Assembly: GCA_034440615.1 (NCBI GenBank)
Contig: JAOTOM010002265.1
Location: 1-64,000 of the forward strand
DNA: 64,000 bases
Direction of reading: 5' to 3'
Source: Ashinkailepas kermadecensis
Taxonomy: Eukaryota > Arthropoda > Thecostraca > Neolepadidae
The position numbers and the translations under genes are program-made. A model generated the notes under the pieces. It was not told where the DNA came from. It ran no database searches and saw only the letters and a program-made list of their open reading frames with translations. This document shows positions 4,885 to 57,259 of this stretch, in pieces (positions within the stretch are counted from its first letter, which is position 1; each line of letters begins with the position of its first letter).

Positions 4885-5001
4885 TGTCGGGTCGGGTCAG
4901 GTCAGCTGTGAGACGTGTCAGCTGAAACTGTGACCTGTGTCGGGTCGGGTCAGGTCAGATGTGAGATGTGAGATGTGTCAGCTGTGACTGTGACCTGTCA
5001 G
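4885..5001 (+). repeat. Duplicated acceptor region before exon a
   Basis: Two copies of a roughly 60-bp block ('gtgtcagctg..actgtgacctgt') precede the exon at 5002. The second ends in the acceptor 'gacctgtcag'. The first copy carries the same block followed by the G-rich 'gggtcgggtcaggtcag'. The acceptor side of this exon has thus been partly duplicated. Confidence 0.5.
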
Positions 5002-5178
5002 GTGAGTCGGCTCAATGAGTCGGTGGCAGAGGTGGGGTCTCGTCTGGAGCGGTGCGAGGCGGACCGCTCGCGAATGGACCGCGAGATCGCCACCTGCCGT
5101 GAGCTCAACCTCAAGCTGGAGACGCAGCGAGAGCGACTCTCCCGGCAGCTGCTTGATCGCGACCGTGACCTCGACAAG
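5002..5178 (+). CDS. Coiled-coil protein, internal exon a (59 codons)
   Basis: An acceptor 'gacctgtcag' precedes an open segment of 59 codons ending at donor 'gacaag|gttagt', phase 0 at both ends. The product is highly charged and helical, with runs such as RLERCEADRSRMDREI and LETQRERLSRQLLDRDRD typical of a continuous coiled coil. It joins in frame to the exon at 7168. The series resembles the C-terminal part of centriolar CEP135/TSGA10-type proteins, but that is a weak family guess: coiled coils are low in specificity. Upstream exons were not found in 1-5000. The donor region is repeated once just downstream (5192-5215). Confidence 0.6.
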
Positions 5179-5191
5179 GTTAGTGATGACC

Positions 5192-5215
5192 TCGTATGTG
5201 ACCTCGACAGGGTCA
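5192..5215 (+). repeat. Extra copy of the exon a splice donor
   Basis: 'tgtgacctcgacagggtcac' repeats the exon end 'cgtgacctcgacaaggttag' about 35 bp downstream. It keeps an exon-like end and a GT dinucleotide, so it is a one-copy example of the junction duplication seen elsewhere in the window. Confidence 0.55.
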
Positions 5216-5254
5216 CTGTTGGAAAGGTCTCCTTCATATTTCGTATTTGTCTGG

Positions 5255-5440
5255 TATACATATGTATGTTGGTTGGTTGGTTATTGGTTTTTACGACACA
5301 TCGACCGTTGAGTCATGTAGCGTCGCCAATCTCTCACGCCGATTGGTCGCGGGCGAAGAGTAGCGACAGGTCAGACTCGAACCCACAACCTTTCGATTGT
5401 GAGACGAGCATCTTACCCCAGACCACTCGTTCCCTACATA
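5255..5440 (-). mobile_element. tRNA-derived SINE
   Basis: On the minus strand there is a tRNA-like head with a B-box-like 'ggttcgagtc' (about 5374-5383) and an A-box-like 'gtggtctggggtaagatgc' (about 5410-5432). It is followed by a body and a 3' end 'aaccaataaccaaccaacc'. The segment 'atgactcaacggtcgatg' in the body is related to tails found at 16853, 20785, 25899, 39232 and 47725, so this is the longest copy of a shared short retroposon family. It sits in the intron after exon a. Confidence 0.55.
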
Positions 5441-5480
5441 TGTATGTATGTATGTATGCACGCATGCATGCATGCATGCA

Positions 5481-5562
<82 letters not shown>
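5441..5562. repeat. Compound microsatellite
   Basis: Tetranucleotide runs (TATG, CATG, CATA) pass into a TA dinucleotide run of about 45 bp. Confidence 0.95.
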
Positions 5563-5565
<3 letters not shown>

Positions 5566-5749
5566 TCCGCGGAGCCGGTGGTGAGTGCTGCTGTTTCACC
5601 GACGTCTGTGCGGCCGCTTCACTCTCCCCGCTTTCGCAGACTGCCGACGTCGCGATCTTTGTGATCAGTTACTGTACGAGCTGGCTAGACTGGCGGAATG
5701 GGTGGCCTCCCAAATATGTAAAACAATAACGCCACTTTCGCCGCGCACG

Positions 5750-5945
5750 TGTCGAGCGGCTCCCTGAAGGCCGTGTTCCGCCGTGTACGTGCCGAGCGGC
5801 TCCCTGAAGGCCGTGTTCCGCCGTGCACGTGTCGAGCGGCTCCCTGAAGGCCGTGTTCCGCTGTACACGTGTCGAGCGGCTCCCTGAAGGCCGTGTTCCG
5901 CCGTATACGTGTCGAGCGGCTCCCTGAAGGCCGTGTTCCGCGCAT
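5750..5945. repeat. 40-bp minisatellite, 5 copies
   Basis: Exact 40-bp spacing of 'tccctgaaggccgtgttccg' at 5761, 5801, 5841, 5881 and 5921. It lies in the intron between exons a and b of the coiled-coil gene. Confidence 0.93.
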
Positions 5946-6309
5946 CCACTCGCACATCCCGGCTCTCGATGCGCTACGCTGATGCCGTTCGGCGTATGTA
6001 ATTGCGAGACTAAGTCCGCCATGCAGGGCGTAGGAGGGTTGCTAGTTCGTGTTCCTTGTTGCTGCGTGGTGGGTATGCAACTGCAGGTGGACGGTATGTT
6101 GATGACTAACACATCAGGCCGACAGTAAATGGGAGTATGCCACATCGTGGGAGTAGTTTGTCCTGATATGTCTCACTGAGGTGACATCAAGTCTGAGTGA
6201 TGTCCATTGATAGGTGTCAGTTTGACAGCATTGTGGTCTACAAACAGCATAACAACACAGCTGTGTGATGTGTCATGTTTGTCCTGACTTGGCTACGGCT
6301 CTGGCCACA

Positions 6310-6655
6310 GTCAAGTCAGATCTCGTGAGTCTCGTCGTGAGGGCCCGTCATGCGAGTTCTCGCCGTGTGAAGTTTCATCGTGTGGGCCCGTGATGCGAAA
6401 TCTCTTCGTGTAAAGTCTCGTCGTGTACAGTCTCGTGTAAAGTCTCGTCGTTTGGGCTAGTCACGTGATACTGGATGGACCGCTCTCGTGTAAAGCCTCA
6501 TGTGAAGTCTAACCGTGTGAAATCTCGTCGGTGAGGTCCGTCGTGTGGTCCAGTCATGTGAAGTATCATCGTGTGAAACCTCATCGAGTGAGATCCGTCG
6601 TGTGGGCCCGTGATGCGAAGTCTCGTCATGCGAGTCCTGCCGTGTGGAGCCACCC
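6310..6655. repeat. Degenerate CTCGTCGTGTGAAGT repeat
   Basis: Imperfect short units ('tctcgtcgtgtgaagt', 'gtgtgggcccgtgatgcgaa') with irregular spacing, intronic to the coiled-coil gene. Confidence 0.75.
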
Positions 6656-6924
6656 CTGTCTGGAGTACAGCCCTGACCTGTATTGTGGTGACCCGGATCC
6701 CGGTACGGTATTCTCTGACAGCGACAATAACAATTGCCGCTGGCCGGAATGAAGAGTTCCGCACCGGAGGCCAGGTGCAGTCCCAGCCGCCGGTAGTGCG
6801 GGCCGGGACTCAGTTCAATAAATGCAGAACTGGTGCTGCTCGGATGGTCCAGTGGTGCCGAGTTGTGTCTGATAGCTCTGGTCTGGTTCTGTCGGTGGGC
6901 GCTGTGTTCCGAGGTCTGTGATTC

Positions 6925-7167
6925 AGATGACCCGTCTGTCGGACAGCTGTGTTAGGAGGGTGCGGTGCTCTGGCCAGAGCTGGAGACGATGACCTCTGAG
7001 TTGAGGTAGGTGGCCTGTGTGGTCATGTGACCTGTGTGACCCGCCTGTTCGACAGCTGTGTTAGGAGGGCGCGGTGCTCTGGCCAGAGCTGGAGACTATG
7101 ACATCTGAGTTGAGGTAGGTGGCCTTGGTGGCCATAGCTGTGACCTGTGGCCCCGTCCGTCGGGCAG
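6925..7167 (+). repeat. Two diverged copies of the exon b acceptor and exon start
   Basis: Segments beginning after 'ctgtcggacag' (about 6951) and 'ctgttcgacag' (about 7059) repeat the true acceptor 'cgtccgtcgggcag' at 7154-7167. They also repeat the first 50 or so bases of the exon, including 'gagctggagacgatg'. In both copies the exon-like part ends in 'gttgaggtaggt', a donor-like sequence. The unit is about 110 bp. Confidence 0.75.
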
Positions 7168-7370
7168 TTGCGTTCAGAGAACGCGACGCTTCAGTCGGAG
7201 CTGGAGACGATGCGTCAGCAGCTGAGCGCTGAGCGGTCGTCCATACACGAGCTGGAGGCGCTGCTGAACTCGTCGCGCGGCCGCGAGTACCACACTGACG
7301 CGGCCGCTCAGCAGCGCGCTGTGGAGCTCGAGAAGATGTCCGACCGGCTGGCCGCCGTCCAGAAGATATT
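7168..7370 (+). CDS. Coiled-coil protein, penultimate exon b
   Basis: Acceptor 'tccgtcgggcag' precedes 203 coding bases, ending at donor 'gatatt|gtgagt' in phase 2. The product begins LRSENATLQSELETMRQQL and continues as a heptad-rich coiled coil through EALLNSS and AVELEKMSDRLAAVQ. The phase-2 end joins exactly to the exon at 8242: one base completes Leu, then EAQKVETG follows. If exon a is spliced directly to this exon the frame is kept. The acceptor has been duplicated twice upstream (6925-7167). Confidence 0.75.
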
Positions 7371-7564
7371 GTGAGTGCGTCTGCACGGCCTACAGCTGTA
7401 CTGCATGACACATCTGAGGCAACAAACAGCTACGAGCACTGAAAGGTGTCGAAGGACGACCACAGAGGCTGGGTAGTGGTATGCACGGGGTGGATAAACT
7501 GCGACATAAATTGTTTCGTAGAGGCTACGAACTGACACCACTGTCGCATTACTTTGATCCCCCT

Positions 7565-8241
7565 TCCCAGCCGACAAGGAGACTCAGAAGGTGGAGACAA
7601 TCTTGCTTTTTATCCCCCTCTCCAGCCGACAAGGAGATCCAGAAGGACTATCTTCTTAGGACTTCAGAGGACTTAGGAGGATTTAGACTTAGGACTTAGG
7701 ACTTCAGACTATCATTGTATTGCCATGTGAGACTTGACTCCCCTGCTGACAGGCAGGCCCAGAAATAGGAGACTAGGTGCGGACAGAAATAGGTGCGGAT
7801 GTACATAATATTGTCATGTGTACATCCGCACCTGGTGCCAGCGAGGGGCCATTACCATGTGTAACCCTACTTCCCCTGCCGACAGTAGTCCGGAAGGTGG
7901 TGACATGATAATATTAGCATGCATAACTCCACTTCCCTGCTGACAGAGGGGCTCAGAAATTGGAGGCTACTGTCATATTGCCATGTGTAACTTCGGTCCC
8001 CTGCCGACAGGAGGCCCAAAGGTACTATCATATTACCATGTGCAACTTTCCCTGCCGATGGGGAGGCCCAGCAAGTGGAGACTATCATGATATTATCATG
8101 TGTAGCTGCGTTTCCCCTGCTGACAGGGGGCACGGAAAGTTGATACGATCATGTTGCCACGTGTAACCCCTCCTACCGACAGGGAGGCCCAGCAGGTGGA
8201 TACAATCATGTTGCCACGTGTAATCCCCCCCCTACCGACAG
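7565..8241 (+). repeat. Array of the exon c acceptor plus exon start, about 10 copies
   Basis: Irregular 45-65 bp units. Each has a copy of the true acceptor and exon start ('cccctaccgacag' then 'ggaggcccagaaggtggaga') followed by an intron-like filler with 'atcatgttgccacgtgtaa'. Recognisable copies start near 7570, 7622, 7743, 7873, 7931, 7999, 8049, 8113 and 8174, and the functional one is at 8229-8260. Most keep CAG and a piece of the GAGGCCCAG exon start. Confidence 0.85.
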
Positions 8242-8599
8242 GGAGGCCCAGAAGGTGGAGACTGGCCTGTACCGGTCGCAGGCAGCAGAGCGCGACCTGG
8301 AGGTGGAACGTCTCAACCGGCAGATGATCGGCGAACGGTTCGAGAAAGAGCGCCTCAGCCAGGAGCTGCGCCGACTGCGCAAGGAGGCCACGCTGGCAGG
8401 CACTTCGGCGCTGCCAGCCGCCGGTGGCGCCACCTATAGCTCTTACGGCAGCCCACCGGTCGGTGGCGCCGTCTCTCGGTCAGTGACGGAACAGACGAGC
8501 GTGGAGCGGCAGTTCACGAGCACGGAGACGAGCAGCGGCTACCGACGCCTGTCTGACTCGCCGACGACCCCGGGCCTGGGGCCGCCTCACAGCAGCTGA
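8242..8599 (+). CDS. Coiled-coil protein, last exon c with stop
   Basis: Follows acceptor 'cctaccgacag' and runs 118 codons to TGA (8597-8599). It starts in phase with exon b. The first half is coiled coil, including LYRSQAAERDLEVERLNRQ, ERFEKERLSQELRRLRKEA. The second half is a Ser/Thr/Gly-rich tail (GATYSSYGSPPVGGAVSRS) ending GLGPPHSS. The ERFEKERLSQELRR signature is what suggests the C-terminus of a CEP135/TSGA10-like centriolar coiled-coil protein; this is inference from memory of the family. The real acceptor is the last of about ten similar copies. Confidence 0.8.
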
Positions 8600-10060
8600 G
8601 AGCGCCTGTGAGTTGCCACCGCCAGCCAGGACACGGCGGTGCGCACCGCCCGTACACCCGACACTGTATCACTAGCGCTGCACCGCCTGCACGCCCGGCA
8701 CCGTTATACCGGCCCTGTTCGATGGCCGCCGACTACTTCCTCAGCTGACGTCACGGGTGCCAGGCTGCTGTGCCATCTTTCGGCGGAAGGTGTCACGTCT
8801 GATAGAACAGGGATGACGGGACGTAACGATTGCTTTCTCACAAACAATTTTACCAGTTGCCTTACGTTAAGACGGGCGGACAACATAGGCGCCGCGATGG
8901 AACAAGAGCGGCGGTTTCACGCAGTTCCCGGGGCACTGCCGTGTCTCCGCTACTGATGGGATGGCAGCAGCACAGGTTATGTCGTCGTATATCCTCGACT
9001 GACAGCTCATCCCCGGCGTTACCGAATCATTGGCGCTGAAAAAGAAAGCGCAGCGAGCATCGGGCATCGTTTGTCACCGTACAACGGGGCTCGCGGTAAT
9101 GTTACGCTACACTGTGCCATCCCGCATCACGATACATCTCGTCGAAGCCGACTTCTATGGAGACCTGGAAATCTATATGGCCGTAATCCATATGGATGTG
9201 GAAATCGGAAGTCATCGAAAAGATCTGGATTGCTGCAATGAAATCATCAGAGGGAACAGCTGATTTCTCCCACATCCATATGGCTGGGTTTGGGAGGCGA
9301 TGAGCTGCTAGCCACCAATTTTCAAACATTCCATACTTGAAATGGCCTAAAGCCACGCTCGCTCGGCGAGGACTGGGCACATGCGGCTGGGCTGTGGTAC
9401 GCCACCAGTTTAATATAACCGCCAGGAGCGATTGGCCGCGAACAGATGTCATCATTGGGCCAGACGCAGGGGGGGAGGGGCAGCTGCCAAGACCAGGGCT
9501 GTGGCTATGGATCCAGCTCCTCTGTGTGATGTATGCAGTGAGCATCGTGAACAGTAGCTGCACTGTGTAGTGAACTATGCGACAGTAGTCATGACCGCCC
9601 ACCAGGATAGTACGCATGCATGTGTATAGCTGCAGTAGCATGCTTCCAGTGTCTCATCTCTATTCCGCAACTGGCTGTTCGGTGCCGGACCATGGCGTAT
9701 TTTCTAATGCGATGTGCGTTTCATGTACGCTCATGATGCAACAATGGCAAGCAAGCAATCACCGCAGGGAAACAATTATTGGCAATGCAACTACGCATAC
9801 CACGTGTGCCCATGCACGCAACTTAATGCGTGTATATAACGCCACTGCTCGTTCTCCGACAGCTCAAAACTGTGCCTGAAATGTGGAGCCTTCATGTGAT
9901 CTGGAACCTGAAGTGTGGGACCTTAACGTGACAGTGCAGCAGTGAGACGGCCTCGTCAGGGGGCTGCTGCGGTTCGGCACCGGTACAGGCAGGAATCGAG
10001 TGGCATGGTGCTAGTCTGGACCAGTGGCTGAAAAAGACTGATGCCATGGTGCCGGTACTG
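8600..10060. other. 3' flank of coiled-coil gene, no gene recognised
   Basis: After the stop at 8599 I see no convincing polyadenylation hexamer, exon or array. Several open frames overlap on both strands (for example 9102-9641) but have no recognisable motif. Confidence 0.5.
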
Positions 10061-10069
10061 GATCAGTGG

Positions 10070-10400
10070 AGGAATGATGACTGGCATGGTGCCAGTCTGT
10101 ACCAGTGGAGGAATGACGACTGCCATAGTGCTGGTACTGGACCAGTGGAGGAATGACGGCTGTCACGGTGCTGGTACTGGATCAGTGGAGGAATGACGAC
10201 TGCCATAGTGCTGGTACTGGACCAGTGGAGGAATGACGACTGTCACGGTGCTGGTACTGGATCAGTGGAGGAATGATGACTGACATGGTGCCAGTCTGTA
10301 CCAGTGGAGGAAAAAGACGGCTGGCATGGTGCCGGTACTCGACCAGTTGATGAATGACGACTGACATGGTGCCGGCACTGGACCGGTGAAGGAAAAAGAC
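10070..10400. repeat. 40-bp minisatellite, about 8 copies
   Basis: 'gaatgacgac' recurs at 10111, 10151, 10191, 10231 and 10271 (40-bp spacing), within units containing 'ctggtactggaccagtggag'. It is intergenic between the two convergent genes. To 10937 no other feature is seen. Confidence 0.92.
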
Positions 10401-10937
10401 GGCCGTCCTGGCGCTAATTTAACTTGATGAATGCTGCCCAGGACGGCTGGAGCGAGCCAGCCCCCTGGTAAACGGTGAGCTCTGTTGACCACCCCACCGT
10501 CAAACTCTCAAGTCATGAAGCCTGTCACCACGTGACGCCATCCAAACTTGGACTGCTCATGCTACTTCCTGTAGTCGTTTGAACGGTGCCACTTACACTG
10601 CTACGAAAAAGAGAATCGACAGAACTCGACTCGCGACGGTGGTACAGACTGACGGCTGATGTGGAAAACGATGTTGATGAACAGAGCGTGATACAACTAA
10701 TAATCGATCACTGCCAGACGTGATATATAATGGTCCGCGTGCACAGCAGAACTTGTATATGACATGCAGGTACAGACATTAACCTGCGTTCTGCTCGCGC
10801 AGCGAATGGGCGCCCTGTGTTGTGTGTTGATCGAGTGTGGCGAGTGTTTTGTCCCTGTTGGACGGTGTTTTACGAAGGCGAGCGAGGCGTTCGGGACTTG
10901 ACTGGCCCCGGCAGCCAGAGCCGTCGCATAGACATAG

Positions 10938-10943
10938 TTTATT
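10938..10943 (-). terminator. Possible SCYL2 polyadenylation signal
   Basis: TTTATT on the + strand reads AATAAA on the minus strand, about 1 kb downstream of the SCYL2 stop at 11931. It is the first canonical hexamer I noticed in that direction. Its use is unproven. Confidence 0.3.
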
Positions 10944-11534
10944 GGCGACGAGTGCCGTGTTAAAATATCGCCGCCGCACGCGTGCCGGCGTAAACGTTAA
11001 CGACAATAAAATGAACCAAACAAACAAGGGCACATCACAATTTCGGAATGTCAAAGCAGTTGTCCGAGGCACCAGATATGCCAGAAAGAGCACAGTTCAC
11101 ACATGGCGGTCACACGGCCACATACGAACACCGGGCGCGCCTGGGGAACCGGAGGCACGGCGTTCGAGTCGCCGCGGTGCCAGCCCTCCCTGTCAGGATG
11201 AGAGGGAGGCAACGCCGTGCGGCCGCGGCTGCTTAGCGCGTCGTAAACCCACAAAACACATCCACAACACCAACACCAATACATAACCTGTTGACGTCCA
11301 GCCCGAACATGCGTGTACCGGTCCCGTAGGCCACAGCTCGTCCTGCTGGGATACACCTGTCTCGGCTCGCCCGGCCGCACGCCCTTCATTGCACGAGTAC
11401 CGTGGCCGCAAGTTAGCTGCTGACGCGCCATCAGCCGACTAACACACATGCACACGCGGCGATATCTGTAAACAGTTAAAGCTCGCTGCCGCAAAATACA
11501 CATACCGACACCGTGCACACGCACCCACACGTAC

Positions 11535-11575
11535 ACGTTACGTACACGCACGCACACGCACACACACACACACCG
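11535..11575. repeat. (AC)n microsatellite
   Basis: Alternating cacgcacgcacac passing into cacacacaca, in the presumed 3' untranslated region of SCYL2. Confidence 0.85.
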
Positions 11576-11930
11576 TACATAAATAGACCGGCGGCCCACG
11601 CCAGCTTTACATAGACATCTCGCTCAGGCCTGTGGTTGCCACATCCCGCAAGCTGGCCCCAAACATTGACAATTAAATACGCGGCACAGTACCCGACCAG
11701 AGGGCTGCCTGTTCCGGAAACAGCACGACTCCGGACGGTGGCAAGTGCTTAATACAGCACGTGGGGGTGCAGAAACGGCTGGCTCATGGCCAGTTTACTG
11801 TTCCCGGCATACCTGATACATACCTGCTATCCAGTACATCTGGTCACCCGTGTCTGCGCGCGGCGACACCTGTGCACAGTGCGCGCAATGCAGCCACTGC
11901 TTGGTCACTTCCCGCCGGCCGTGGCCGAGA

Positions 11931-27978
<16,048 letters not shown>

Positions 27979-27985
27979 GGCGCTG

Positions 27986-30115
27986 CTGCAGGAGACACCT
28001 GCAGTAGACACACCTGAGGTCAACTGCTGGTCAGGTCATGGTGCCAGGAGACACCTGCAGTAGACACACCTGAGGTCAACTGCTGGTCAGGTCATGGTGC
28101 CAGGAGACACCTGCAGTAGACACACCTGAGGTCAACTGCTGGTCAGGTCATGGTGCCAGGAGACACCTGCAGTAGACACACCTGAGGTCAACTGCTGATC
28201 AGGTCATGGTGCCAGGAGACACCTGCAGTAGACACACCTGAGGTCAACTGCTGGTCAGGTCATGGTGCCAGGAGACACCTGCAGTAGACACACCTGAGGT
28301 CAACTGCTGGTTAGGTCATGGTGCCAGGAGACACCTGCAGTAGACACACCTGAGGTCAACTGCTGATCAGGTCATGGTGCCAGGAGACACCTGCAGTAGA
28401 CACACCTGAGGTCAACTGCTGGTTAGGTCATGGTGCCAGGAGACACCTGCAGTAGACACACCTGAGGTCAACTGCTGGTCAGGTCATGGTGGCAGGAGGC
28501 AACAGCAGTAGACACATCTGAGATCAACTGTTGATCAGGTCATGGTGACAGGAGACACCTGCAGTAGCAGTGTTAAAATAATGGTTTTTCATTAGGTGTG
28601 AGATGTCGAAACAAGCACAGTAGGATGTCGAAAGTTGCCATGGAATTAGTGTCATTTAAAATCCTTTTGATATCTTTGAGACTCAAATTTGAGCCAATGG
28701 TGTACTTATGACTGTACGTTTATCATTTGTTTTGAAAATCATAATTTAGGAAGAGCTATATTCGGGATAGGGAGAATAATACCAATGGTATAAACTGGTA
28801 TTGTATGCCATATCACATTATAGGCAATCCCTTTAAATACATTTGAGTTGCAAAATATTCCTGTATCCCCATTCCTTATCGAGAGCATGAACATGATACT
28901 TATGAACAAGATACTGTTAGCACGGAGATATGAGGACTTCATAAGCACGCATCAATGAGCACGATGCTGATACTTCTGTGGAGAAGGATGTCAATTGAGT
29001 GTTCAGAAAGTGGTATATTCCACCCTATTTCACGAATAATTTATCACCGTGCAGTAGACACACCTGAGGTTAACTGCTGGTCAGGTCATGGTGACAGAGA
29101 CACCTGCAGTAGACACACCTGAGATTAACTGCTGGTCAGGTCATGGTGGCAGGATACACCTGCAGTAGACACACCTGAGGTCAACTCCTAGTCAGGACAT
29201 GGTGACAGGAGACACCTGCAGTAGACACACCTGAGGTTAACTCCTGGTCAGGTCATGGTGGCAGGATATACCTGCAATAGACACACCTGAGGTTATCTGC
29301 TGGTCAGGGCATGGTGACAGGAGACACCTGCAGTAGACACACCTGAGGTCAACTGCTGGTCAGGTCATGGTGGCAGGATACACCTGCAGTAGACACACCT
29401 GAGGTTAACTGCTGGCCAGGTCATGGTGACAGGAGACACCTGCAGTAGACACACCTGAGGTTAACTGCTGGTCAGGTCATGGTTACAGGAGACACCTGCA
29501 GTAGACACACCTGAGGTTATCTGCTGGTCAGGTCATGGTGGCAGGAGACACCTGCAGTAGACACATCCGAGATCAACTGTTGATCAGGTCATGGTGACAG
29601 GAGACACCTGCAGTAGACACACCTGAGGTTAACTGCTGGTCAGGTCATGGTGACAGGAGACACCTGCAGTAGACACACCTGAGGTTATCTGCTGGTCAGG
29701 TCATGGTGGCAGGAGACACATCTGAGATCAACTGTTGATCAGGTCATGGTGACAGGAGACACCTGCAGTAGACACACCTGAGGTTAACTGCTAGTCAGGA
29801 TATGGTGACAGGAGACACCTGCAGTAGACACACCTGAGGTCAACTGCTGGTCAGGTCATGGTGGCAGGATACACCTGCAGTAGACACACCTGAGGTTAAC
29901 TGCTGGTCAGGTCATGATGACAGGATACACCTGCAGTAGACACACCTGAAGTTAACTGCTGGTCAGGTCATGGTGACAGGAGACACCTGCAGTAGACACA
30001 CCTGAGGTTAACTGCTGGTCAGGACATGGTGACAGGAGACACCTGCAGTAGACACACCTGAGGTTAACTGCTGATCAGGACAAGGTGACACCTACAGCAT
30101 GCAGGTCTGCTGGTC
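27986..30115 (-). repeat. 56-bp array upstream of the SCYL2 start, split by an insertion
   Basis: Units of 56 bp ('ggagacacctgcagtagaca', 'ggtcaactgctggtcaggtc') run from the presumed acceptor next to the ATG to 28567, then resume at 29050. The distal part is more diverged ('gaggttaactgctgg', 'ggcaggata'). On the minus strand each unit carries 'tctactgcag', acceptor-like, and many carry 'ggcaccatgacc', so the array may derive from the acceptor and start region. Confidence 0.93.
28568..29049. mobile_element. hAT-like non-autonomous DNA transposon (482 bp)
   Basis: The 56-bp array is interrupted by AT-rich unrelated sequence. The 8 bp TGCAGTAG is present on both sides (28560-28567 and 29050-29057), although the repeat unit has it once, so it is a true 8-bp target duplication. 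The ends are imperfect inverted repeats: CAGTGTTAAAATAAT versus CGGTGATAAATTATT, 11 of 15 matching. An 8-bp duplication and CA(G)GTG-type ends are hAT hallmarks. It has no transposase. Confidence 0.78.
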
Positions 30116-31790: not shown

Positions 31791-32049
31791 GTAGGAAAGG
31801 ATGTTTCCGGGTGACTTCCCCAGCTCACTTACCGATTACTAAACACAAGTTTTTGTCTGCTATAAATATAAATTCCCAAACTATGAATAAATTACTTGCA
31901 TTGCATGTACGCTAATTTCTACGAATCTTCTGAATCACCTTTGCGCCATAACAGAGGCTGCCGCGCTGTATATGACGCCGTTTATGAATGTCCGGCATAA
32001 AGGCATACCTTCAATGGAAATTAAGTTTTAAAGAATTCTGCTTTCAGGC

Positions 32050-33173
32050 ATAATCCGATACAGGTATCAGGTCCAGAGCACACGAAACCATCCAGCATCT
32101 TCAGCGTTCCGACCGGGTCGGGCTCCAGGCCACAGAAGGCACCTAAGACCAATCAACACCGTGGCAAGGCTCGCTGAAGTGGCTGCTGCAACGCTGGGAA
32201 TGCCACCGCTGTCCATTGCAACAAAGCCTCGTCTGTTTCCGTTCTGGCTTTACAACACATTACCCATCGAATATCTCTTCCACTTCAACAAGTCACAGAC
32301 CACGGAACTTGAGGTGCGAGCGTCTTTCAATGAGTACAAAGGTGTACATAGTGATTATGAGTTTTTCTACACCGACGGCTCTGGTCACGGCGAAAAGGCT
32401 GGTGCAGCCGCTGTGGGCCGGAACTTCCGCTTCGGCACGAGACTCCCTAATTTCACCACCGTTTTCACCTCTGAACTATATGCAATGAAAATCGCTTTGT
32501 CGCATATCAAAGAAGTCGGCATTGCTCAGGCAGTTATCTGTACGGACTCCCGAGCCTCCTTACAGGCACTACACAGACATCACAACATCGAACACCCTTA
32601 TGTGTTGGAGCTGATCGAAATGTGGCATTCTCTTCCTCCTTTGCAGAACGTTATTTTCTTATGGGTCCCTGGACATTTTGGAATATCGGGAAATGTACGA
32701 GCTGATACCCTGGCGAACGAATCCATTCTCTCACCGACGCCGCTGGATATTCCCCTTGCGCTCTCCGATGTCTTACATCAAACAAAAATGTGTCTCGCAA
32801 ACTACCTACAAAATGAATGGAGAACCACGCACTCCAGTCATTTTTACAACATCAAACCGACTCTGGCCCCGTGGTCCACCAGCTCGCAAAACAGTCGTGA
32901 ACTGGAGGTGACCCTGGCTCGACTACGGCTTTGCCATACGAGACTGACTCATGGCCACCCTCTTGATCGTTCCCCGCCTCCGCTCTGCAATGAGTGTGAT
33001 GTTCGCCTGACAGTAGAGCACATATTAATCAGCTGCCCAAAACATCGCACGGAAGACGGCTCATAGAAAACTTTGATGCAAATCTCAGCAATCTACTCGG
33101 GAACAACCACCCAGACCTGGTAAGTAAAGTTCTCGATTTTATTACTGAAGCTCGGTTAATAGAAGAAATATAG
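32050..33173 (+). mobile_element. 5'-truncated LINE with intact-looking RNase H domain
   Basis: An open frame (32161-33066) encodes an RNase H domain with FYTDGS, SELYAMK, TDSRAS and PGHFGISGNVRAD, giving the four acidic catalytic residues (D72, E105, D129, D182 counted from 32161). After it comes a Cys/His segment CNEC...VEHILISCP. A frameshift at about 33055 separates the last 40 codons, which continue as RRLIENFDANLSNLLG to a TAG at 33171-33173. The layout (RNase H then C-terminal zinc-binding segment) is typical of I/R1-type non-LTR retrotransposons. The reverse transcriptase is missing. Confidence 0.8.
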
Positions 33174-34300: not shown

Positions 34301-37300
34301 TCCGAATGGTAAACGAGCAAACGTTAGAAATGTCTGCTTTCCGACCATTCTTGAACGTAAAAAGTCATAAAGTATTACTGCTTAATAAGAGCCACATGGG
34401 CCCATCTGGGTTAAGCCTATCTAGAAAAGGTACTAGAAATGTACATACTCTCACCCCAATCAATGCCTTATCCCAAGTTCCTAGGAAGCTATATACCCCA
34501 GCCTATCTAGCACCACTCACTTGCTACCGCATAACACCCTCAACAATCACAAGCTCCTCCCATCATACCCATCGTGCCACCATAGATAATCTCATCAGCA
34601 TCACATCCCGAAGGAAGGTGCCGAATCCACTGCTAGGCACACCCCACACAAATTCATAAAGCGTTCAGACTTAATAAGAGAATCACTTGCTATTGCATAA
34701 TACACTCAACAATTACAAACTCCTCCCATCATACCCATTGTGCTACGATAGACAATCTCATCAGTATCACATCCCGAAGGAAGGTGCTGAATCCACTGCT
34801 AGGTACACCCTATATAAAGTTATAAAGCGTTTAGACTTAATAAGAGACTCACTTGCTATTGCATAACACACTCAACAATTACAAACTCCTCCCAACTCCC
34901 ATCTCCTCCCTGTCGATCAACCCTCCCTGGAATACAGAAAAACAAGCCCCCTATTCTTATAATGATTGTCTATGCCGTTTTTAAAGATGTTCAGTGTGTT
35001 GCTACTGACAATGGTTCCTGGCAGCTGGTTCCAGTGTTCCCTGTTGGTGAAGAAAGACTGTCTGAACCTTGTCCTGCTGTGATTAACTTTAATTTTTAAT
35101 TGATGACCTCTAATTGCATCATTTCTGTTAAATTCAAACATTTCCCTGAGATATCGCTGTTCCTGACCATGAACAAATTTAAAAACCTCGATGAGATCTT
35201 CTCTCAGCCTTCTATATCTAAGTAAAAACATATTCAATTTCTTCAATCTTTCCTCATATGCCAGGTTGCCTATACCATTAACCATTCGTGTTGCCCTCTT
35301 TTGTACTCACTCTAAAAGCCAACAATCTTTCTAATAACTAGGGGACCAAACTTGGACACAGTATTCCAAATGTGGCCTGACATATGCACAGTAAAGCTTC
35401 CTGATGACCTCCTCACTTTTGCATGACACATTCCTCTGTATTGCCCCAAGCATTCTTAGTGCCTTCTTCCTGGCTTCTTTGGTCTGTTCTGATGCCCCCA
35501 ATTTTGTGTTCAAAATAACACCTAAGTCCTTCTCCTGCGAGTCACAGATAGTACTGGCCACCCATCAAGTATGGAGCCTTCATATGCTGCCTACCTACAT
35601 GCATGACTTTGCACTTATCAAAATTAAACTTCATTTGCCATTTTTCGGACCGCTTCACTAGCTCGTCTAAGTCTTTATGCAGCAAAACCTGCTCATTGTG
35701 CCCTGTTATTGCCCTAAGGATCTTCAAATCATTCGCAAATTTCAAAACCTTACTGCTTAGGCCACATTCAATGCTATTCACATATATAATGAACAATAGT
35801 GGCCCCAGTACCGACCCCTGGGGGACTCCACTAAGAACATTTTGCCATAATGACTTTGTACCATTTAGCATCACTCTCTGCTGTCTATCTGAAAGCCACA
35901 ACTCTATCCATTTTAGGATGCTACCTGCAATACCATGGACCTGAAGCTGCATCATTAACCGTTTATGGGGTACCTTGTCAAAGGCCTTACTAAAGTCAAG
36001 ATATGCTACATAAACCTAATTTCCCTGATCAAATTGTTCTGTAGCAAAATTCAAAAAGTCCAAGAGATTTGTGAGACACGATCGCCCTTTTCTAACCCAT
36101 GTTGAGTATCTTGAATCAATCTGTTTCCTTCCAGAAAACTAACTATTCTATCCTTGATAATTGATTCGAGTACCTTGCAGACTAGGGATGTGAGGCTTTC
36201 TGGCCTATAGTTTTCAACTTTCCCTCTTTCTCCTTTCTTGAAAATAGGAACTACATTTGCCCTTTTCCAATCTGTTGGAATTTCATTTTGTGAAACTGAT
36301 CTACAAAATATTATACTAAGTGGAATTGCCACTTCCTTTTCAGCTTCCCGCAATACCCTAGCATAAATTCCATCAGGTCCTGCTGCCTTGTTTGGCTTTA
36401 TTTTTCTGATATAATTGAAAACAATATCACTATCAATGAAATCAACATCGTGTATCTGATCACCTGTCACTGAACTGTGGTTCACGGTTGGCAGATTAGT
36501 CACATCCTCCACTGTAAACACTGATTTAAACTGCTTGCTCATCTCCTCAACCATCTCACCATCCTCACTCAATTTAGTCCCATTTACTTCCAGTGGACCA
36601 ATTGTGCTTGAAACTTTACTTAGCTTGTAGAAACTAAAGAACTTTTTACTGTCCCCATTACAGTTCCTAGCCAAATCCAATTCTTTTGCTCGCTTTGCTG
36701 CTCTGATTTTCTGCTTCACAGCATCTCTATATTTTTTATACGACCTTAGATTTACGATATTTGAAGCTTCCTTAAATACTCTAAATGCATCTTTCTTAGC
36801 CTTAATTGCTTTCATCACATCTGGTGTAAGCCATGCTGGCTTTCCTACCCTTCTTTTGCGCCTTTGCTTTTGGGGGACATGTCTAATCTGAATTTCCCTC
36901 AAGTAAGATTTGAACTTTTCCCACATTTCACAAGCATTTAAATCAAAGAATCCTTCTTCCCATTTTATGGCACTTAAAGCCTCTCTCATGCAGTCAAAGT
37001 TTGCCCTGTTAAAATTTGGAATCTTTGCCAAATTATCCTTGATTGTCCCTGCTACCTGTGCCTTGAATCTCACTATGTTATGGTCACTTCTTCCCAGAGT
37101 TTCACCTACAGTCAAGTCTTGAACTAAATCACTTAAATCTGAGAAGACAAGGTCCAAGAATGAGCCCTGCCTGGTTGGTTCCGTTACAAACTGGTGTAAG
37201 AACAAGTCCTCTTCAAGGCATTTCCTAAACAGTTTACATGATGGGGAGCCAACACCAACATTTTCATATCCTTTTAGATTAAAGTCACCAAGAATAAGGC

Positions 37301-37920
37301 ATTTCCTCCGACAGTTTCTACTGATTTCCTCACAAATTACTTTATCGAGCTCCAGTTGCTGAGAATGTGGCAAGGTTCCTGATAGATACAAAACTCCTAT
37401 CCTCAGTTTATTGCTGTTGTCTTTTCCCACAGCAACATCAATGGACAAATGGACTCCACAGACACATTTTTTACCCCATCTGCTACTTTTTGAGAACTGC
37501 ATAAGCTATTCACATACAGCATTACACCACCCCCTTTCACTGCTGGACCCCTATTGCATGAAAACATATTGTATCCCTGGATCTCATAGTCCTGCAAGTT
37601 ATCCCCAAAATATCCCTCACTGACCCATGCCTCAGTAATGCAAACAAAATCTGGTTTCTCCTCAGCAACATAACACTTGAACTCATCAAATTTGGATCGA
37701 ATGCTCTGAGCATTAAGCATCATACACTTAACAAAAGTTCCATGACCCTCTTTGGCTTTTTATGTTGAGTAGCTCTATCATCTCTGGATGAGCTACCACT
37801 CTGCCCCCTTGATCTACTGCTACCCCTATTTGCTGACTGTGAGGTTCTATTGCCTATGCTGTCACTATTGGCATATCCCTGAGATGGCAATGCCAATTCT
37901 TCCCTCCCCACCCCATTATC
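34300..37920 (-). mobile_element. CR1-like LINE, nearly full length but broken
   Basis: Minus strand, in order: a short Ser/Arg-rich part (37911-37720); endonuclease start MMLNAQSIRSKFDEF (37723); endonuclease core with ILGDFN and RSDHNIV, then the RT start with NKAAGPDGI (37502-36051); RT core SGVPQGSVLGPLLFIIYVN (35955-35542); thumb KDLGVILNTKL and HLEYCVQVWSP (35561-35331); and a C-terminal part (35285-34917). At least three frame changes and one stop separate these pieces. The catalytic FADD box reads FANDLK, so an essential Asp is lost. The 3' flank contains a tandemly duplicated segment of about 180 bp. Confidence 0.88.
34510..34915 (-). repeat. About 180-bp tandem duplication in the LINE 3' region
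   Basis: Segments with 'cacttgctattgcataac', 'atcacatcccgaaggaaggt' and 'ataaagcgtttagactta' occur at about 34518-34680 and 34684-34855, with a third start at about 34851. It is downstream of the LINE coding end on the minus strand. Confidence 0.8.
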
Positions 37921-43284: not shown

Positions 43285-44925
43285 AACGGAGGAGTTGCCC
43301 CAATCCGGAGAGGTTGAGAACCACCTGTCCAGTGGCTGAACACGACACGGTGTGATGGTGCCTGGATCGGTTGGCTGTGTGACGGCTCCTGTGCCAGTGC
43401 TGCGAGCGCAAGAGTCACGGTGGTGCTGCCAGGGGCGGAGAGAGCTCCCCGCACTGCCGAGTCTGGACGTGCCACTCACATCGGACACAGGCCGGCTGGC
43501 TGAGGTCACTGACAGCCGACACTGACATCCGACACTGACACCCAACACTGACACCTGACACCCGACATCGACACCCACACTGATACCCGACACTAACACC
43601 CGACACTGATATCCAACACTGACACCCGACACTTATACCCGACACTGACACCCGACACTGACACCCGACACTGACACCCGATACCGACACCCACACTGAT
43701 ACCCGACACTAACGTCCGACACTGATGCCCGACACTGACACCTGACACTTAGACCCGACACTGCCACCCGACACTGCCACCCAGCACTGATATACGACAC
43801 TGACAGCCGACACTGACACACGACACTGACACCCAGCACTGATATACGACACTGACAGCCGACACTGACACACGACACTGACACCCGACACTGATGCCCG
43901 CACTTACACCCGACACTGATACCCGACATTAACACCAGACACTGATACCCGACACTGACACCCGACACTTAGACCCGACACTGACACCCAACACTGATAT
44001 CCGACACTTAGACCCGACACTGACACCCAACACTGATATCCGACACTGACGCCCGACACTGAAACCAGATACTGACACACAACACTGACACACGACACTG
44101 ACACCCGACACTGATACCCGACACTGATACTCGACACTGACACCCGACACTGAGACCCGACACTCACACCCGGCAATGACACCCGACACTAACAGCCGAC
44201 ACTGACACCCAACACTGACACCCGACATCCGACATCGACACCCACACTGATACCCGACACTAACACGCGACACTGATACCCGACACTGACACCTGACACT
44301 GATATCCGACACTGACACCCGACACTGATACCCAACACTGACACCCGACACCGACACCTGACACTGACACACGACACTGACACCCATCACTGATACCCGA
44401 CACTTGACCCGACACTGATGCCCTACACTTAGACGCGATACTGACACCCACGCTGATACCCGACACTAACACCCGACACTGATACGCGATACTGACACCG
44501 GACATTTAGACCCGACACTGACACCAAACACTGACACCAGAAACCGACATCCATACTGATACCCGACACCAACACCCGACACTGACAACCGACACTGACA
44601 CCTGACACTGACACCCAACACTGACATCCGACACTGTCACCCGACACTGACACCCGACACTGACGCCCGACACTGACACACGACACTGACACCAGACACT
44701 GATACCCGACACTTAGACCCGACACTGACACCCGACACTGATACTCGACACTGACACCCGACACTGAGACCCGGCACTCACACTCGGCAATGACACCCGA
44801 CCCTAACAGCCGGCACTGACACCCAACACTGACACCCGACACCCGACACTGATATCCGACACCCGACACTGATACCAGACACTGATGCCCGGCACTGGCA
44901 CCCGACACCGACAACGACGCCCGAC
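43285..44925. repeat. Segmental duplication, copy 1
   Basis: About 210 bp of unique sequence (from 'ccccaatccggagaggttga' to 'ctggctgaggtcactgac') followed by satellite is repeated, almost base for base, at 57257-58910, 14 kb away. Local differences are single substitutions and gains or losses of a few short units. Confidence 0.92.
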
Positions 44926-45360
44926 ACCGACACCGACGTCCGACACCGACACCGACGCCCGACACCAACACCCGACACTGACCCCCGACACTGATATCCG
45001 ACACTAATACCCGACACTGACACCCGGTACTGATATCCAACACAGATACCCGACACTGACACCAGACATTGATATCTGACGCTGACACCCGGTACTGATA
45101 TCCGACACAGATACCTGACACTGAGTCCAGACACTGATACCCGACACTGTCACCTGGCACTGATACTCGATACTGACACTCGACGCTAACAATCGGCACT
45201 GACACCCGGCACTGATACCATACATTGACGCCCGACACTGACACCCGACACTGATACCCGATACCGACATCCTACATCCAACACCCGACACTGATACCCG
45301 ACACTGACACCCGACACTGATACCCGATACCGACATCCGACATCCGACACCGACACTGAT
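43500..45360. repeat. Degenerate short-unit satellite (CCGACACTGACA)
   Basis: A 1.9-kb run of 12-bp based units ('ccgacactgaca', 'ccgacactgata', 'ccgacacttaga') with no long-range homogenisation, apart from the duplicated block noted separately. Minus-strand open frames of Cys-Arg-Val-Ser repeats are artefacts. Confidence 0.95.
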
Positions 45361-47999: not shown

Positions 48000-50430
48000 G
48001 AGTGACAGTGACTAAACGCGCCCAAAGTGGCGTCTACGTTCCTCTTCATAACCGGGGCGGGAGAGCAGGACATCACGCACAGAAAGGGGTACGTGACATT
48101 TCGGGCAGCGTGGTAATTCATTACCAGTTAGCAAGTACGAGTGAGTGGCATATGTGTGCCCTATTCTCAAGCGGCATAACGCTACTTCGTGTCGCCTATT
48201 CATACGCGAGCACGAACTCCATTTTTCGAGACGATGCTTGATCGCTTTCAGCTTATTATCAGGTATTGCATTCCAAGAAGCTTGCCACTTTGCGAGCACA
48301 TACGCAGAAATGGCTCGGAAGTGATCACGGGCAGGGAGCGGTAGGGTTCGCAAGCATGGAGCTAGCGACGCACGTTTTGCAGCAGCATCCGCTAGGTCGT
48401 TCCCAGAGATGCCCACGTGGCTTGGGATCCAACACAGTACTACTCTTTTACCTGCTTCATGCACAGCGGTAAGGCGAGATAAAACATCCTGTAAAATGGG
48501 ATTAGATGGGTCGAGCGTCCTCATCGACAAAAGGCTATTTAACACGCGCACTGGAGGGGGGCGAAATCCGCCCACCCCTCCGATTTTTCGTAAATATCTG
48601 CCGATTTTACCGGTCGATGTACGCGATTTTCTGCGTACATGCTTAGAAATGACTGGCGCGTCGGTTAAAGGACGAAAAATGGAAATCGACCGAACATTTT
48701 TCAAGTTAGGGGCCGTTAAAGTCAAAACATTTTCTAGCGCCAGACTACAAAAATCGGCGCTGATGCGCTTCCCGTATATTCGCAAAATGGAAGTGTTCTT
48801 GGCAACACTAGCGACTTGTTTGATGTATATTGATATGGTATATAGTTTCAGGCTAATGTTAGGTCACCCAGGTCAAGTCAGGCCAAGTTTATGACATGTT
48901 ATTTGAACCAAACTTGATCAACTGGAATGTTGTCATAAATGCACTACTCTTTGTCATTTGTACTGTTTGTCATTGCGTTTACATACTTTATTCATGTACT
49001 TCACTCCTTTCTTCACGAAGCCGATTGCTCCGAGCTGCCCAATGGAGCAGTCGGGCGGGCGGCCGGTTCCGGTAACTGGAACAGGTAACTGACCTGATAA
49101 AGCGGTGTTATATAGGTGACCTGACGTCAAATGTTGGGTCTAGCATCTGCATTGCATCATTAGTAAAGTCTAAAACATCATTGATGCCCATTTTGGAGCA
49201 TTTAAACACAATCACAGCGATCCATAACGATGACAAATCAAGCCACACAATACCATAAAATTTTGAAAATTTGACCTCATTTGACCTTGAAGATATTGAC
49301 CTAAGGTCATAAATTTGCACACAATAGAGTTCACTGCCGTACCCATCCACTCTGTAAATTTCATTCCTCTAGCTTCACTAGGAGCCGAGATCTTAGGGGG
49401 GCGGAATCCGCCCCCCCTCCATTGCGCGTAATTTTCAGAGGCCCTCCAGGGCGCGTTTTAAGGAACCCGTTAAAATAACGTGTGGTGGAGCATTTGACAC
49501 TTCAATGAAACCTAGAGCATTCAAGATTGCAATAAGCACAGAGGAATACACAGACGCATGCGATGGAAGTGAAAAACATCTTACAACAGCACCGGTAGTA
49601 AAAGCGCTGCCGGCGCCGGCCTCCGTTCTGGATCCATCGGTATATGTTGCAACGAATTCAGTGTAACTCGATGTGCTCCGTGGCAAGTGCTCGAAATTCA
49701 TGTGATATGACACCCGCTTTCTTTGTGCCGGCGAGGTATACGTCCACTTCATGGTGTTATGAGCTCCCACGGCGGAGTCGGAATGCGTTCAGTGCGCCGA
49801 ATACCCCGTAGCCGGAGACCACTCTCATAGAACAGGCGCCGCATTCGCACACCATACGGGACGGCATTCATAGGCCGTTCGTCTGAGTACAGCGACAGCA
49901 TGCGGTGGGAAAATAGGTGGGCATAAGCTGGGTGATCCGGATGATCCCATAGTTTGCAGGCATATCGCATTCCAAGCTGCTCACGATGAAGAGAGAGTGG
50001 AAATTCGGGAGTTTCTGCGAGGGGACTTGCCGTTGGAGATGTACGAAAGGTCCCTGTAATGATCCGAAGCACAGAGTGGTGAACTGTGGCCAGGGTACGT
50101 TTGCTCGTCAAACATGCTCCGTCATAAATAAAACATGAATAGTCAAGTTTTAATCGAATAAGCGAGCGGTATAGCAGGAGTAGCGTTGCCCGGTCTGCTC
50201 CATAGTTCACACGAGCCACACATTTCAAGACATTCAGGGTTTTCACAAACTTATTTCGCAACGTTTTAAGATGATGCCGGTATGTCAAGCGCGTGTCGAA
50301 CTCCACCCCCAAAAATCAGGCTACAGGTTGCACCGGTATCGTCTGCCGGTAAAGTAGGATATCCATGTTGGGACAGCGACGTGTGTTGGGGTGAATGAAG
50401 CCCACCGACCCTGACAGTGAGAACACCGCA
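48000..50430 (-). mobile_element. RNase H-bearing LINE remnant, interrupted
   Basis: On the minus strand the RT thumb starts near 50430 (FLGVEFDTRLTYRHHLKTLR at about 50320) and continues LLYRSLIRLKLDYSCFIYDG. A frame change leads to the RNase H start (YTDGSRTEAGAGSAF, about 49640). An 886-bp foreign element then intervenes (48544-49429), after which RNase H resumes with CWIPSHVGISGNDLADAA and a Cys-rich end CPKCHVPLSV. The second and third catalytic acids are altered (SSVLIA for a usual AEL; LTGSL for a usual TDS). This makes it a dead copy. It is a different element from that at 32050-33173. Confidence 0.85.
48544..49429. mobile_element. 886-bp DNA element with palindromic GC-rich inverted ends
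   Basis: It interrupts the RNase H frame of the surrounding LINE. The left end 'acgcgcactggaggggggcg' and the reverse complement of the right end 'acgcgcaatggagggggggg' match over about 20 bp. Next to each end lies an inner palindrome of the type GGGGGGCGGAATCCGCCCCC. There is no transposase-like frame, so it is probably a non-autonomous (MITE-like) element of unknown family. I could not define a target duplication. Confidence 0.6.
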
Positions 50431-51027: not shown

Positions 51028-54000
51028 ACCACCCTGCCGATTCACTGCCGACGGACGTGTGACAGGGAGAGGCCCGACAGTCGGCGTCATCACCGGCGCT
51101 GGTGCTCCGTCCAGAACGCCGACGGCGTGTCGCTCGCCGGCCTCCTGGCCCTCCTGTTGATGTGCACCGTCTGCGTGGCCGGCGTACCGGCACCTCTTGG
51201 CGCCGACACTCGGCTGACAGCTGTCAGACGCGCTGTCCGCGCCATGCCGGCGGGCTGTCACACTCTGCTGGTGGTACAGTGGGACTCCACACTGGCACCC
51301 CTCACAGACACACTGCTGCGGCGGCTCAGCGGCCACCTCGCCTGGAGCGTGTTCACACCACGCGGCGACTGTGTGGCGGCGGCCAGCTCACGCTGCTCTG
51401 GTCGCGGCGGAGCGCCATGTCGCTGCTGGACGTCACCCTCTCCCGGCTGCTGGCCGACGTCGACCGGCCGACATTCTGGGCGGCGGACAGCGTGGTGCTG
51501 ACGTCCAACTCGTCCTGCCGCGGCCTGCTCGCCTCGCCCGTCGCCGACAAAGTGCACCAGCTGTTCTGCGTCTAACGGCACGGTCTCCTGCAGCGCCGCC
51601 ACTTCCAGCCGCCCTCCGAGTCATCGGTCGTCGTCCTTCACGCGCCCACCCGCACCTCAGTCCCGTGACGCACTCCTTCAACTACCATACCCTCAACGTC
51701 ACCGATGAGGTTATGTCACCGTTCATCATGCTCAGGATCTCCTCCGGCCGCCGCGCGCCGATGCTGGATCAGCTGACCGGCATAAGGCCGACCTACTGCG
51801 CGACTTCGCCGCTGCATGGCACGTTCGCGCACAGCTGGCCGCCAACCCGCAGCCGGGCGACTGGGGCCGGCAGGTGAACGGCGTGTGGACTGGCCTGGTG
51901 GGCACCGTGGCGGCCGGCCGCGTCGAGCTAACCGCCGGCGACATCAGCCACACTGAGGAGCGTCAGCGGACGGCCGACTTTACGCCGGCCCACATCAACA
52001 ACGTGTACGTGTCGCGCTGGGCGTTGGCCGGCGTGCAGTGGACCCGTTTCATGGAGCCCTAGCAGCGACAGGTGTGGTACTGGCTGCCGGCCAGCTACGC
52101 CGCCTTCGCCGCCGTCGACGCGTGGCTGGTCACGGCCGCCGGACGGCCGACGGACACCGGCGTGATGGCGGCCGTGTCGGTACAGCTGGCGCAGTCGCTG
52201 CCGTGGGCGCCGCGCCAGCCGCTGGCGCTCGGCCTGCTCGCCGTCTGACCGCTGGCCTGCACCGTCGTGACGCTGGCCTACAGCGGCACGCCGGTCAGCC
52301 ACCTGGTGCGGCCGGCGCCGCTGGTCAGCGCGGTCACGCCCGAGGGCTTCGTCCAGGCCGACCACACCATCGTCGCGCCCACCGGCATCGCGGCGGCGCT
52401 GCAGGCACAGCGACGTCAGGCGGGACTGGCGCGTCAGCTGGCGTAGCGCACCCCGACCCGTCTGGTGCGTCAGCTGGAGCAGCGCACCCCGACCCGTCTG
52501 GTGCGTCAGCTGGAGCAGCGCACCCCGACCCGTCTGGCGCGTCAGCTGGAGCAGCGCACCCCGACCCGTCTGGTGCGTCAGCTGGAGCAGCGCACCCCGA
52601 CCCGTCTGGCGCGTCAGCTGGCGTAGCGCACCCCGACCCGTCTGGTGCGTCAGCTGGAGCAGCGCACCCCGACCCGTCTGGTGCGTCAGCTGGAGCAGCG
52701 CACCCCGACCCGTCTGGTGCGTCAGCTGGAGCAGCGCACCCCGACCCGTCTGGTGCGTCAGCTGGAGCAGCGCACCCCGACCCGTCTGGTGCGTCAGCTG
52801 GAGCAGCGCACCCCGACCCGTCTGGTGCGTCAGCTGGAGCAGCGCACCCCGACCCGTCTGGTGCGTCAGCTGGAGCAGCGCACCCCGACCCGTCTGGTGC
52901 GTCAGCTGGAGCAGCGCACCCCGACCCGTCTGGTGCGTCAGCTGGAGCAGCGCACCCCGACCCGTCTGGTGCGTCAGCTGGAGCAGCGCACCCCGACCCG
53001 TCTGGTGCGTCAGCTGGAGCAGCGCACCCCGACCCGTCTGGTGCGTCAGCTGGAGCAGCGCACCCCGACCCGTCTGGTGCGTCAGCTGGAGCAGCGCACC
53101 CCGACCCGTCTGGTGCGTCAGCTGGAGCAGCGCACCCCGACCCGTCTGGTGCGTCAGCTGGAGCAGCGCGCCCCGACCCGTCTGGTGCGTCAGCTGGCGT
53201 AGCGCACCCCGACCCGTCTGGTGCGTCAGCTGGAGCAGCGCACCCCGACCCGTCTGGTGCGTCAGCTGGAGCAGCGCACCCCGACCCGTCTGGTGCGTCA
53301 GCTGGAGCAGCGCACCCCGACCCGTCTGGTGCGTCAGCTGGAGCAGCGCACCCCGACCCGTCTGGTGCGTCAGCTGGAGCAGCGCACCCCGACCCGTCTG
53401 GTGCGTCAGCTGGAGCAGCGCACCCCGACCCGTCTGGTGCGTCAGCTGGAGCAGCGCACCCCGACCCGTCTGGTGCGTCAGCTGGAGCAGCGCACCCCGA
53501 CCCGTCTGGTGCGTCAGCTGGAGCAGCGCACCCCGACCCGTCTGGTGCGTCAGCTGGAGCAGCGCACCCCGACCCGTCTGGTGCGTCAGCTGGAGCAGCG
53601 CACCCCGACCCGTCTGGCGCGTCAGCTGGAGCAGCGCACCCAGACCCGTCTGGCGACCAACCTCGCCTACCCGGCGGCGCTGCGCACGCTGACTGGCAGG
53701 CAGGCGTTGATGGAGGAGCGGTTGGTGGTGGCGCAGTTCCTGGCGCAGGCGCCGCACGTGCGCGCCGCCGAGCCGGGTCTGCTTCCCACCGGCTTGGCGT
53801 GGGCGCTGCAGTGGCACTCGCACTGGCTGCCAGCACCGGGTCGCTTCCTCCCGCGGATGCGGGAGTCAGGCCTCCTGGAGCGCCCTATCGATGGCTACGT
53901 GCACCAGCAGCGCGATGGCTACGTGCGCCTGCACAGCCAGTTCCAGCTGCTGGTGGCCGGCCTGGCCACGAACGCCGACGTGTTCTGTGTGGAGACGTTC

Positions 54001-57186: not shown

Positions 57187-57259
57187 CCAAACGCAAAAGA
57201 TGCGTTATCAGCTGCACCAAGCAGTGGTGTACATAAGCAAGCCGTTTTCTCATAGTACG
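57187..57259. repeat. 73-bp direct repeat, left copy
   Basis: Identical over 73 bp to 58944-59016 (starts 'ccaaacgcaaaagatgcg', ends 'ttctcatagtacg'). The pair brackets the second satellite block. Confidence 0.95.

Follow-up and report, generated by a model that had tools for sequence, protein, structure and literature searches.

What kind of repeat copies the junction between an exon and its intron, and do junctions carry more such repeats than random placement would give? Two neighbouring genes of the barnacle Ashinkailepas kermadecensis raise this question. The window, i.e. the whole stretch of DNA analysed here, comprises the first 64 kb of a 96,638-base contig (C1768) in an assembly of 908 Mb. 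We regard its junction arrays, with a probability of about 0.72, as "mirages": local tandem duplications that straddle an exon-intron border and have expanded into the intron as minisatellites, being near-neutral and favoured by GC and probably by the junctions as such. The existence of arrays that copy junctions is confirmed.

Junction copies in SCYL2 and its neighbour

The two genes and the repeats at their junctions are as follows.

11931..27978, minus strand: SCYL2 (SCY1-like protein 2), 13 coding exons, from protein alignment
5002..8599, plus strand: coiled-coil protein gene, terminal exons a, b and c, from a gene model
26771..27007, minus strand: SCYL2 exon 2 donor array, 75-79 bp units; exon end 26953
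24230..24638, minus strand: SCYL2 exon 4 donor array, 37-bp units; exon end 24613
20237..20648, minus strand: SCYL2 exon 6 donor array, 91-bp units; exon end 20625
17507..17641, minus strand: SCYL2 exon 9 donor array, 31-bp units; exon end 17620
15529..16184, minus strand: SCYL2 exon 10 acceptor array, 64-bp units; exon start 15549
27158..27350 (approximate), minus strand: SCYL2 exon 2 acceptor, copied in degenerate form in intron 1, from the probe scan
8114..8259, plus strand: coiled-coil exon c acceptor array, 57-bp units; exon start 8242
6928..7190, plus strand: coiled-coil exon b acceptor, degenerate copies in 109-bp units; exon start 7168
4886..5010, plus strand: coiled-coil exon a acceptor array, ending 4 bp short of exon a (start 5002), with degenerate acceptor copies
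5160..5215, plus strand: single degenerate copy of the coiled-coil exon a donor; exon end 5178
27989..28567, minus strand: 56-bp array by the SCYL2 start codon, left out of the counts

Splice sites were called from homology and consensus in one assembly. SCYL2, hand-spliced from its 13 exons, forms a single frame of 885 residues, which aligns end to end with the SCYL2 of Amphibalanus amphitrite at 72-73% identity. This is its best match (1405 bits; the next protein scores 1026 bits), and the 12 exon boundaries all lie more than 10 residues from the nearest gap. The last three exons of the coiled-coil gene gave no Pfam match at E ≤ 0.001 and no PDB match at E ≤ 0.01.

Arrays were counted with Tandem Repeats Finder (TRF) at a period of at least 10, the TRF output for the window comprising 84 rows. 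TRF arrays cover 37.1% of the intron bases of the two genes (6029 of 16250) and 4.9% of their exon bases. Six of the 29 junctions lie within arrays, namely the donors of SCYL2 exons 2, 4, 6 and 9 and two acceptors, those of SCYL2 exon 10 and coiled-coil exon c, and 18 to 55 exonic bases have been taken into the arrays at these six sites. The exon 2 donor array includes 55 exonic bases and three donors, all CAG/GTCAGT, and the exon 6 donor array repeats the donor ACCAAG/GTAAT five times. With the true site counted, the GTGAGT donor of exon 4 occurs 11 times consecutively and the CCGCAG acceptor of exon 10 ten times. By eye, the upstream units of the exon 10 array (15529-16184) also carry TCTG/GTGAGC about 18 bp past the AG, which gives them the look of tiny exons with both splice sites.

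A scan independent of TRF, in which a 40-nt probe from each junction was compared with the adjoining intron and with 200 dinucleotide shuffles, found 10 of the 29 junctions copied at P ≤ 0.02, when at most about 0.6 were expected. These ten are the six junctions within TRF arrays together with the acceptor (P = 0.020) and donor (P = 0.015) of exon a, and the acceptors of exon b (P = 0.010) and of SCYL2 exon 2 (P = 0.005). The copies at exons a and b are weak and degenerate (P 0.010 to 0.020). Thus all eight junctions that the original prediction had named as copied along with exon sequence are confirmed, two of them as degenerate copies only; the exon a acceptor, given there with a "perhaps", is indeed copied, in a weak and degenerate form, and the copied acceptor of SCYL2 exon 2 is an addition. 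The last unit of the array at 27989..28567 lies at most 11 bp from the start codon, and this array possibly repeats a 5'-UTR acceptor (ctactgcag/GTGTCTCC) or the start context.

Frequency of junction arrays inside and outside the window

The window had been picked because of the pattern itself, and for this reason genes outside it were tested. PRPF8, AP2B1 and CLTC, and the exons of XPO1, VCP and KPNB1 as an added set, are a convenience choice and are not random, and 18 + 20 kinase regions were hand-picked from the 138 Pfam kinase matches in the assembly, as exon pairs with adjoining matches or as exons whose match stops within the domain. Two of 11 CLTC introns and two of 26 PRPF8 introns were removed for want of a clean splice solution, as were one of 19 kinase introns that gave no consistent splice pair, 18 of 66 single-exon junctions, whose splice scores were weak, and five of the 17 loci of the XPO1/VCP/KPNB1 set, which belong to other AAA ATPases. 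Single-exon calls underlie 48 of the 196 junctions, and the donor called at one kinase locus (L042) is probably about 18 bp off. Outside the counts stand L001 to L008 (single-exon kinase loci, TRF only), L030 and 78 myosin exons. The overlapping XPO1 loci may have led to a double count of at most one array, and the P values assume that arrays are independent.

The pattern is not limited to this locus, recurring in PRPF8, AP2B1 and the kinase sample of the same assembly. Junction-spanning arrays make up five of 14 in PRPF8 and five of 11 in AP2B1, where one of them contains 21 consecutive donors, the true site counted. The single array within the called introns of CLTC starts exactly at a donor.

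In the final test, each array was collapsed to one unit and its position was compared with uniform and GC-weighted seeding nulls. The pooled sample outside the window holds 65 arrays and 168 junctions. Fifteen arrays span a junction (5.4 expected under uniform and 9.0 under GC-weighted seeding, P = 0.019) and 12 touch one, at -4 to 14 bp (3.6 and 5.2, P = 0.0036), making 27 of 65 in these two classes (9.0 and 14.2, P < 0.0001). At 15-99 bp from a junction there are 11 arrays (12.7 and 13.5), and 27 lie at least 100 bp away (43.3 and 37.3). When only arrays within 100 bp are considered, as a guard against deep introns filled with transposons, 27 of 38 span or touch, as against 15.9 under uniform seeding (P = 0.0001) and 20.2 under GC-weighted seeding (P = 0.011), a modest excess. 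The pooled data therefore show an excess centred on junctions in the sampled genes outside the window. GC explains roughly one third of this excess here and roughly half in an earlier GC-weighted test.

The sets differ. In the window alone, six of 18 arrays span a junction (1.9 expected under uniform seeding, P = 0.007; 3.0 with GC weighting, P = 0.056) and none touches one, and with GC weighting P is 0.21 for both classes together and 0.72 within 100 bp. For PRPF8, AP2B1 and CLTC the corresponding GC-weighted values are P = 0.005 and P = 0.029, and this is the only set significant within 100 bp. They are P = 0.047 and P = 0.35 for the kinase pairs, in which none of the 15 arrays spans and six touch, and P = 0.043 and P = 0.20 for the kinase single exons. 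XPO1, VCP and KPNB1 gave no significant excess (three of six arrays, P = 0.32; within 100 bp, P = 0.64).

It could be argued that junctions have no preference at all and that GC-rich minisatellites are so abundant that GC and tolerance set their rate at junctions. The share of array sequence in the introns of the window (37%) is in keeping with this. GC is 54% in junction zones, 45% in deep introns and 58% in arrays. A first GC-weighted null over whole introns gave P = 0.06 for all 63 arrays (0.04 with a stricter overlap) and P = 0.18 for the window. By coverage there is no excess, arrays spanning 14 of 102 junctions and covering 19.5% of intron bases (first five genes; AP2B1 in part), but expansion into introns dominates coverage. 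The result within 100 bp outside the window, at P = 0.011 only, leans the same way. However, when arrays are counted once, an analytic seed null expects 4.2 spanning arrays where 14 of 40 were found, and in the larger sample of collapsed arrays the combined excess of 27 over 14.2 withstands GC weighting. It has gone past 15 bp, and it persists among arrays of at least 2.5 copies with units of at least 20 bp (18 of 39 span or touch, 10.0 expected, P = 0.001). We consider an absence of preference rather doubtful on this balance, and an extra, junction-specific bias in array birth of roughly 1.3 to 1.9 fold likely. An edge-position simulation was also applied. A half-intron null with arrays masked wholly, under which 26 arrays outside the window spanned or touched as against 22.0 with GC weighting (P = 0.13), had an inflated expectation and was replaced by the collapsed arrays.

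The claim that spanning units are too many for random placement therefore holds for arrays counted once and in other genes; it does not hold by coverage, GC takes a part of it, and the window alone is not significant after GC correction.

Structure and possible origin of the arrays

The units of spanning arrays contain exon and intron sequence of one boundary of the host gene, and both 5' and 3' boundaries are affected (12 donors and nine acceptors among the 21 spanning arrays). The statistics on breakpoints and unit lengths predate a strand correction that alters one of their 21 spanning arrays. In them, unit breakpoints were scattered at random about the junction (overhang/unit, KS P = 0.23) and the median unit length was 42 bp in spanning arrays and 32.5 bp in the others (P = 0.002). 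Longer units in spanning arrays would be expected under any seeding model. Units in multiples of three are not in excess, accounting for eight of 21 spanning arrays (seven of 21 after the strand correction) and 17 of 50 others. The median match between copies is 87% in spanning arrays, 90% in touching arrays and 86% in arrays at least 100 bp away. The copies of a junction array resemble one another as closely as those of an array deep in an intron, and junction arrays are therefore not mere older survivors.

This homogeneity has a bearing on the idea that junctions are mutational hotspots, at which co-transcriptional splicing, polymerase pausing, R-loops or a step in composition would cause local breaks or re-replication and so tandem duplications. 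The peak at -60 to +15 bp, with donors and acceptors affected alike, also agrees with it, but the ends of the units are unfixed relative to the splice site, and such an origin seems to us a tentative proposal, unlikely on the whole. A link of the birth bias to transcription or splicing is possible. We are likewise inclined to doubt that tandem duplications in this lineage arise at true junction hotspots, over and above what GC and selection account for; if they did, transcription or splicing would be linked to local DNA duplication that continually rewrites the ends of introns.

Selection could instead keep decoy arrays as an aid to exon recognition or splicing regulation, and the use of decoy sites in splicing had been entertained in the original prediction. 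In a first set of decoys, GT or AG was kept in 61 of 62 copies, as compared with 84 of 107 for identical dinucleotides at other places in the unit, copies within an array being non-independent. In the fuller count, which covers 17 of the 21 spanning arrays (the other four lack a full ungapped copy), the splice dinucleotide is better kept than other dinucleotides in 12 arrays, worse in three and equally in two. Yet it is retained in 76 of 82 copies, when the figure for the remaining non-CpG dinucleotides is 86% (P = 0.10 by copy, 0.11 by array), and one acceptor array keeps its AG in only one of five copies. Decoys are therefore neither strongly purged nor clearly conserved. With no excess of multiples of three, and with arrays unshared between paralogs (see below), maintenance or use of the decoys is improbable. 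We also considered, and rejected, donor-like motifs in the 28 arrays confined to introns (strong donors 0.07, as against 0.04 of controls).

The paralogs in question are six kinase exon pairs on different contigs, with 82-98% nucleotide identity (L035/L036, L037/L038, L041/L042, L051/L055, L060/L061 and L062/L063), which are either duplication paralogs or strongly diverged haplotypes. Their introns could not be aligned at E 1e-8 with low-complexity masking on, and in the five pairs examined for arrays no array was common to both members. The exons being similar and the arrays and introns unshared, introns and arrays therefore turn over faster than exons.

Apart from their position, nothing further was found to suggest that the units are dispersed elements, such as introners or pieces of transposons, that insert at splice sites. 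A comparison of 117 array units gave four matches between loci, three of which represent one array in overlapping loci and the fourth a stretch of 19 bp. A two-unit query from the exon 10 acceptor array found no second site in the 908-Mb assembly, under a search setting that passes over very common words, and the spanning units carry the exon of their host gene, so that dispersed insertion is hardly credible. Contig-level assemblies can miscount copies, and tandem copies might have been collapsed or inflated; however, the copies differ by distinct point differences, the pattern occurs at many separate loci, and degenerate copies are hard to produce by mis-assembly. An artefact is accordingly very improbable.

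We therefore return to mirages of near-neutral origin. A tandem duplication over a donor would give the order exon, intron, exon fragment, intron; splicing at the first donor would then remove the added fragment along with the intron, and acceptors would present the mirror image. Such a duplication would be nearly neutral because use of the exon-side site would discard the surplus exon fragments with the intron, one intact junction staying beside the exon. The exon-side site is probably the one in use, because the SCYL2 protein is free of gaps at its 12 boundaries relative to Amphibalanus. This continuity supports the earlier statement that the functional junction always adjoins the remaining exon, a statement that is partly true by definition. 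Duplications within exons would mostly be eliminated, making junctions the last place that tolerates arrays, and the GC of exon edges would favour arrays there. A near-neutral duplication of a junction could then expand like any minisatellite.

Relation to known repeats at exon-intron borders

The original prediction knew of no named system of this kind, but the mirages of lancelets match. Allelic or somatic length instability has reportedly been seen in the lancelet Adh3 mirage. In the parts of the two reports available to us, mirages are described from Adh3, the globin genes BflGb6 and BflGb9, troponin C and PGBD5, as minisatellite-like units over the boundary of exon and intron, on the 5' as well as the 3' side, with AG or GT in many copies, and they reportedly leave regular splicing undisturbed (PMC3087553, PMC3902484). 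The arrays found here share the traits given in those parts, with exon and intron in one unit, both types of boundary, and many copies with GT or AG (76 of 82). They differ from what is described there in their crustacean host, in affecting several unrelated genes, and in that the junction excess was estimated against explicit nulls. What is new is thus the group of host animals and the excess at junctions tested here, whereas the mirage kind itself is already known.

Introners are similar sequences dispersed over many introns, a distribution not seen among the units compared here. In intron gain of the Rogers type, a new intron is said to derive its two splice sites from copies of one exonic AGGT segment. 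In the available part of PMC4974935, splice signals are copied by tandem duplication, as here, although our copies sit in existing introns. TRF minisatellites with units of about 30 bp on average occur at exon-intron borders in human segmental duplications, where they reportedly change introns in recently duplicated paralogs and may even give rise to new ones (PMC2812944); this situation is different from that of the conserved genes here, in which the coding frame is unchanged. Intron 1 of the earthworm metallothionein gene, like the introns here, contains tandem repeats of minisatellite length, but junction-spanning units are not described in the sections available (PMC12783039). In a limited library, which included parts of PMC8917513 and PMC11331182, both on barnacle genomes, we could not find any report on junction-spanning repeats in barnacles, and this is weak evidence.

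In the literature examined mirages are a lancelet curiosity, and crustacean cases with a measured excess make junction-promoted duplication testable. The arrays are a source of spare splice sites for the lengthening of introns, intron gain and shifts of exon borders. For annotation they call for caution, as decoy donors or acceptors may flank true sites by the dozen.

The window also contains repeats of other kinds. About 1.65 kb is present in two copies (43286-44926 and 57257-58910), 14 kb apart and 95% identical, which contain a 13-bp (CACTGACACCCGA) minisatellite and its flank and reflect either local segmental duplication or a stretch that was assembled twice. A 36-bp unit is repeated 34 times at 52426-53653 (98% match, about 73% GC), with several open frames on both strands, and could be coding or non-coding. 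At 61504-61973 lies an AT dinucleotide repeat of 470 bp with a 100% match, flanked on both sides by GA repeats, with a TG repeat beyond. Broken frames that by eye resemble the reverse transcriptase, endonuclease and RNase H of non-LTR retrotransposons occur at 32032-33066 on the plus strand and at 34917-37759 and 48012-50315 on the minus strand.
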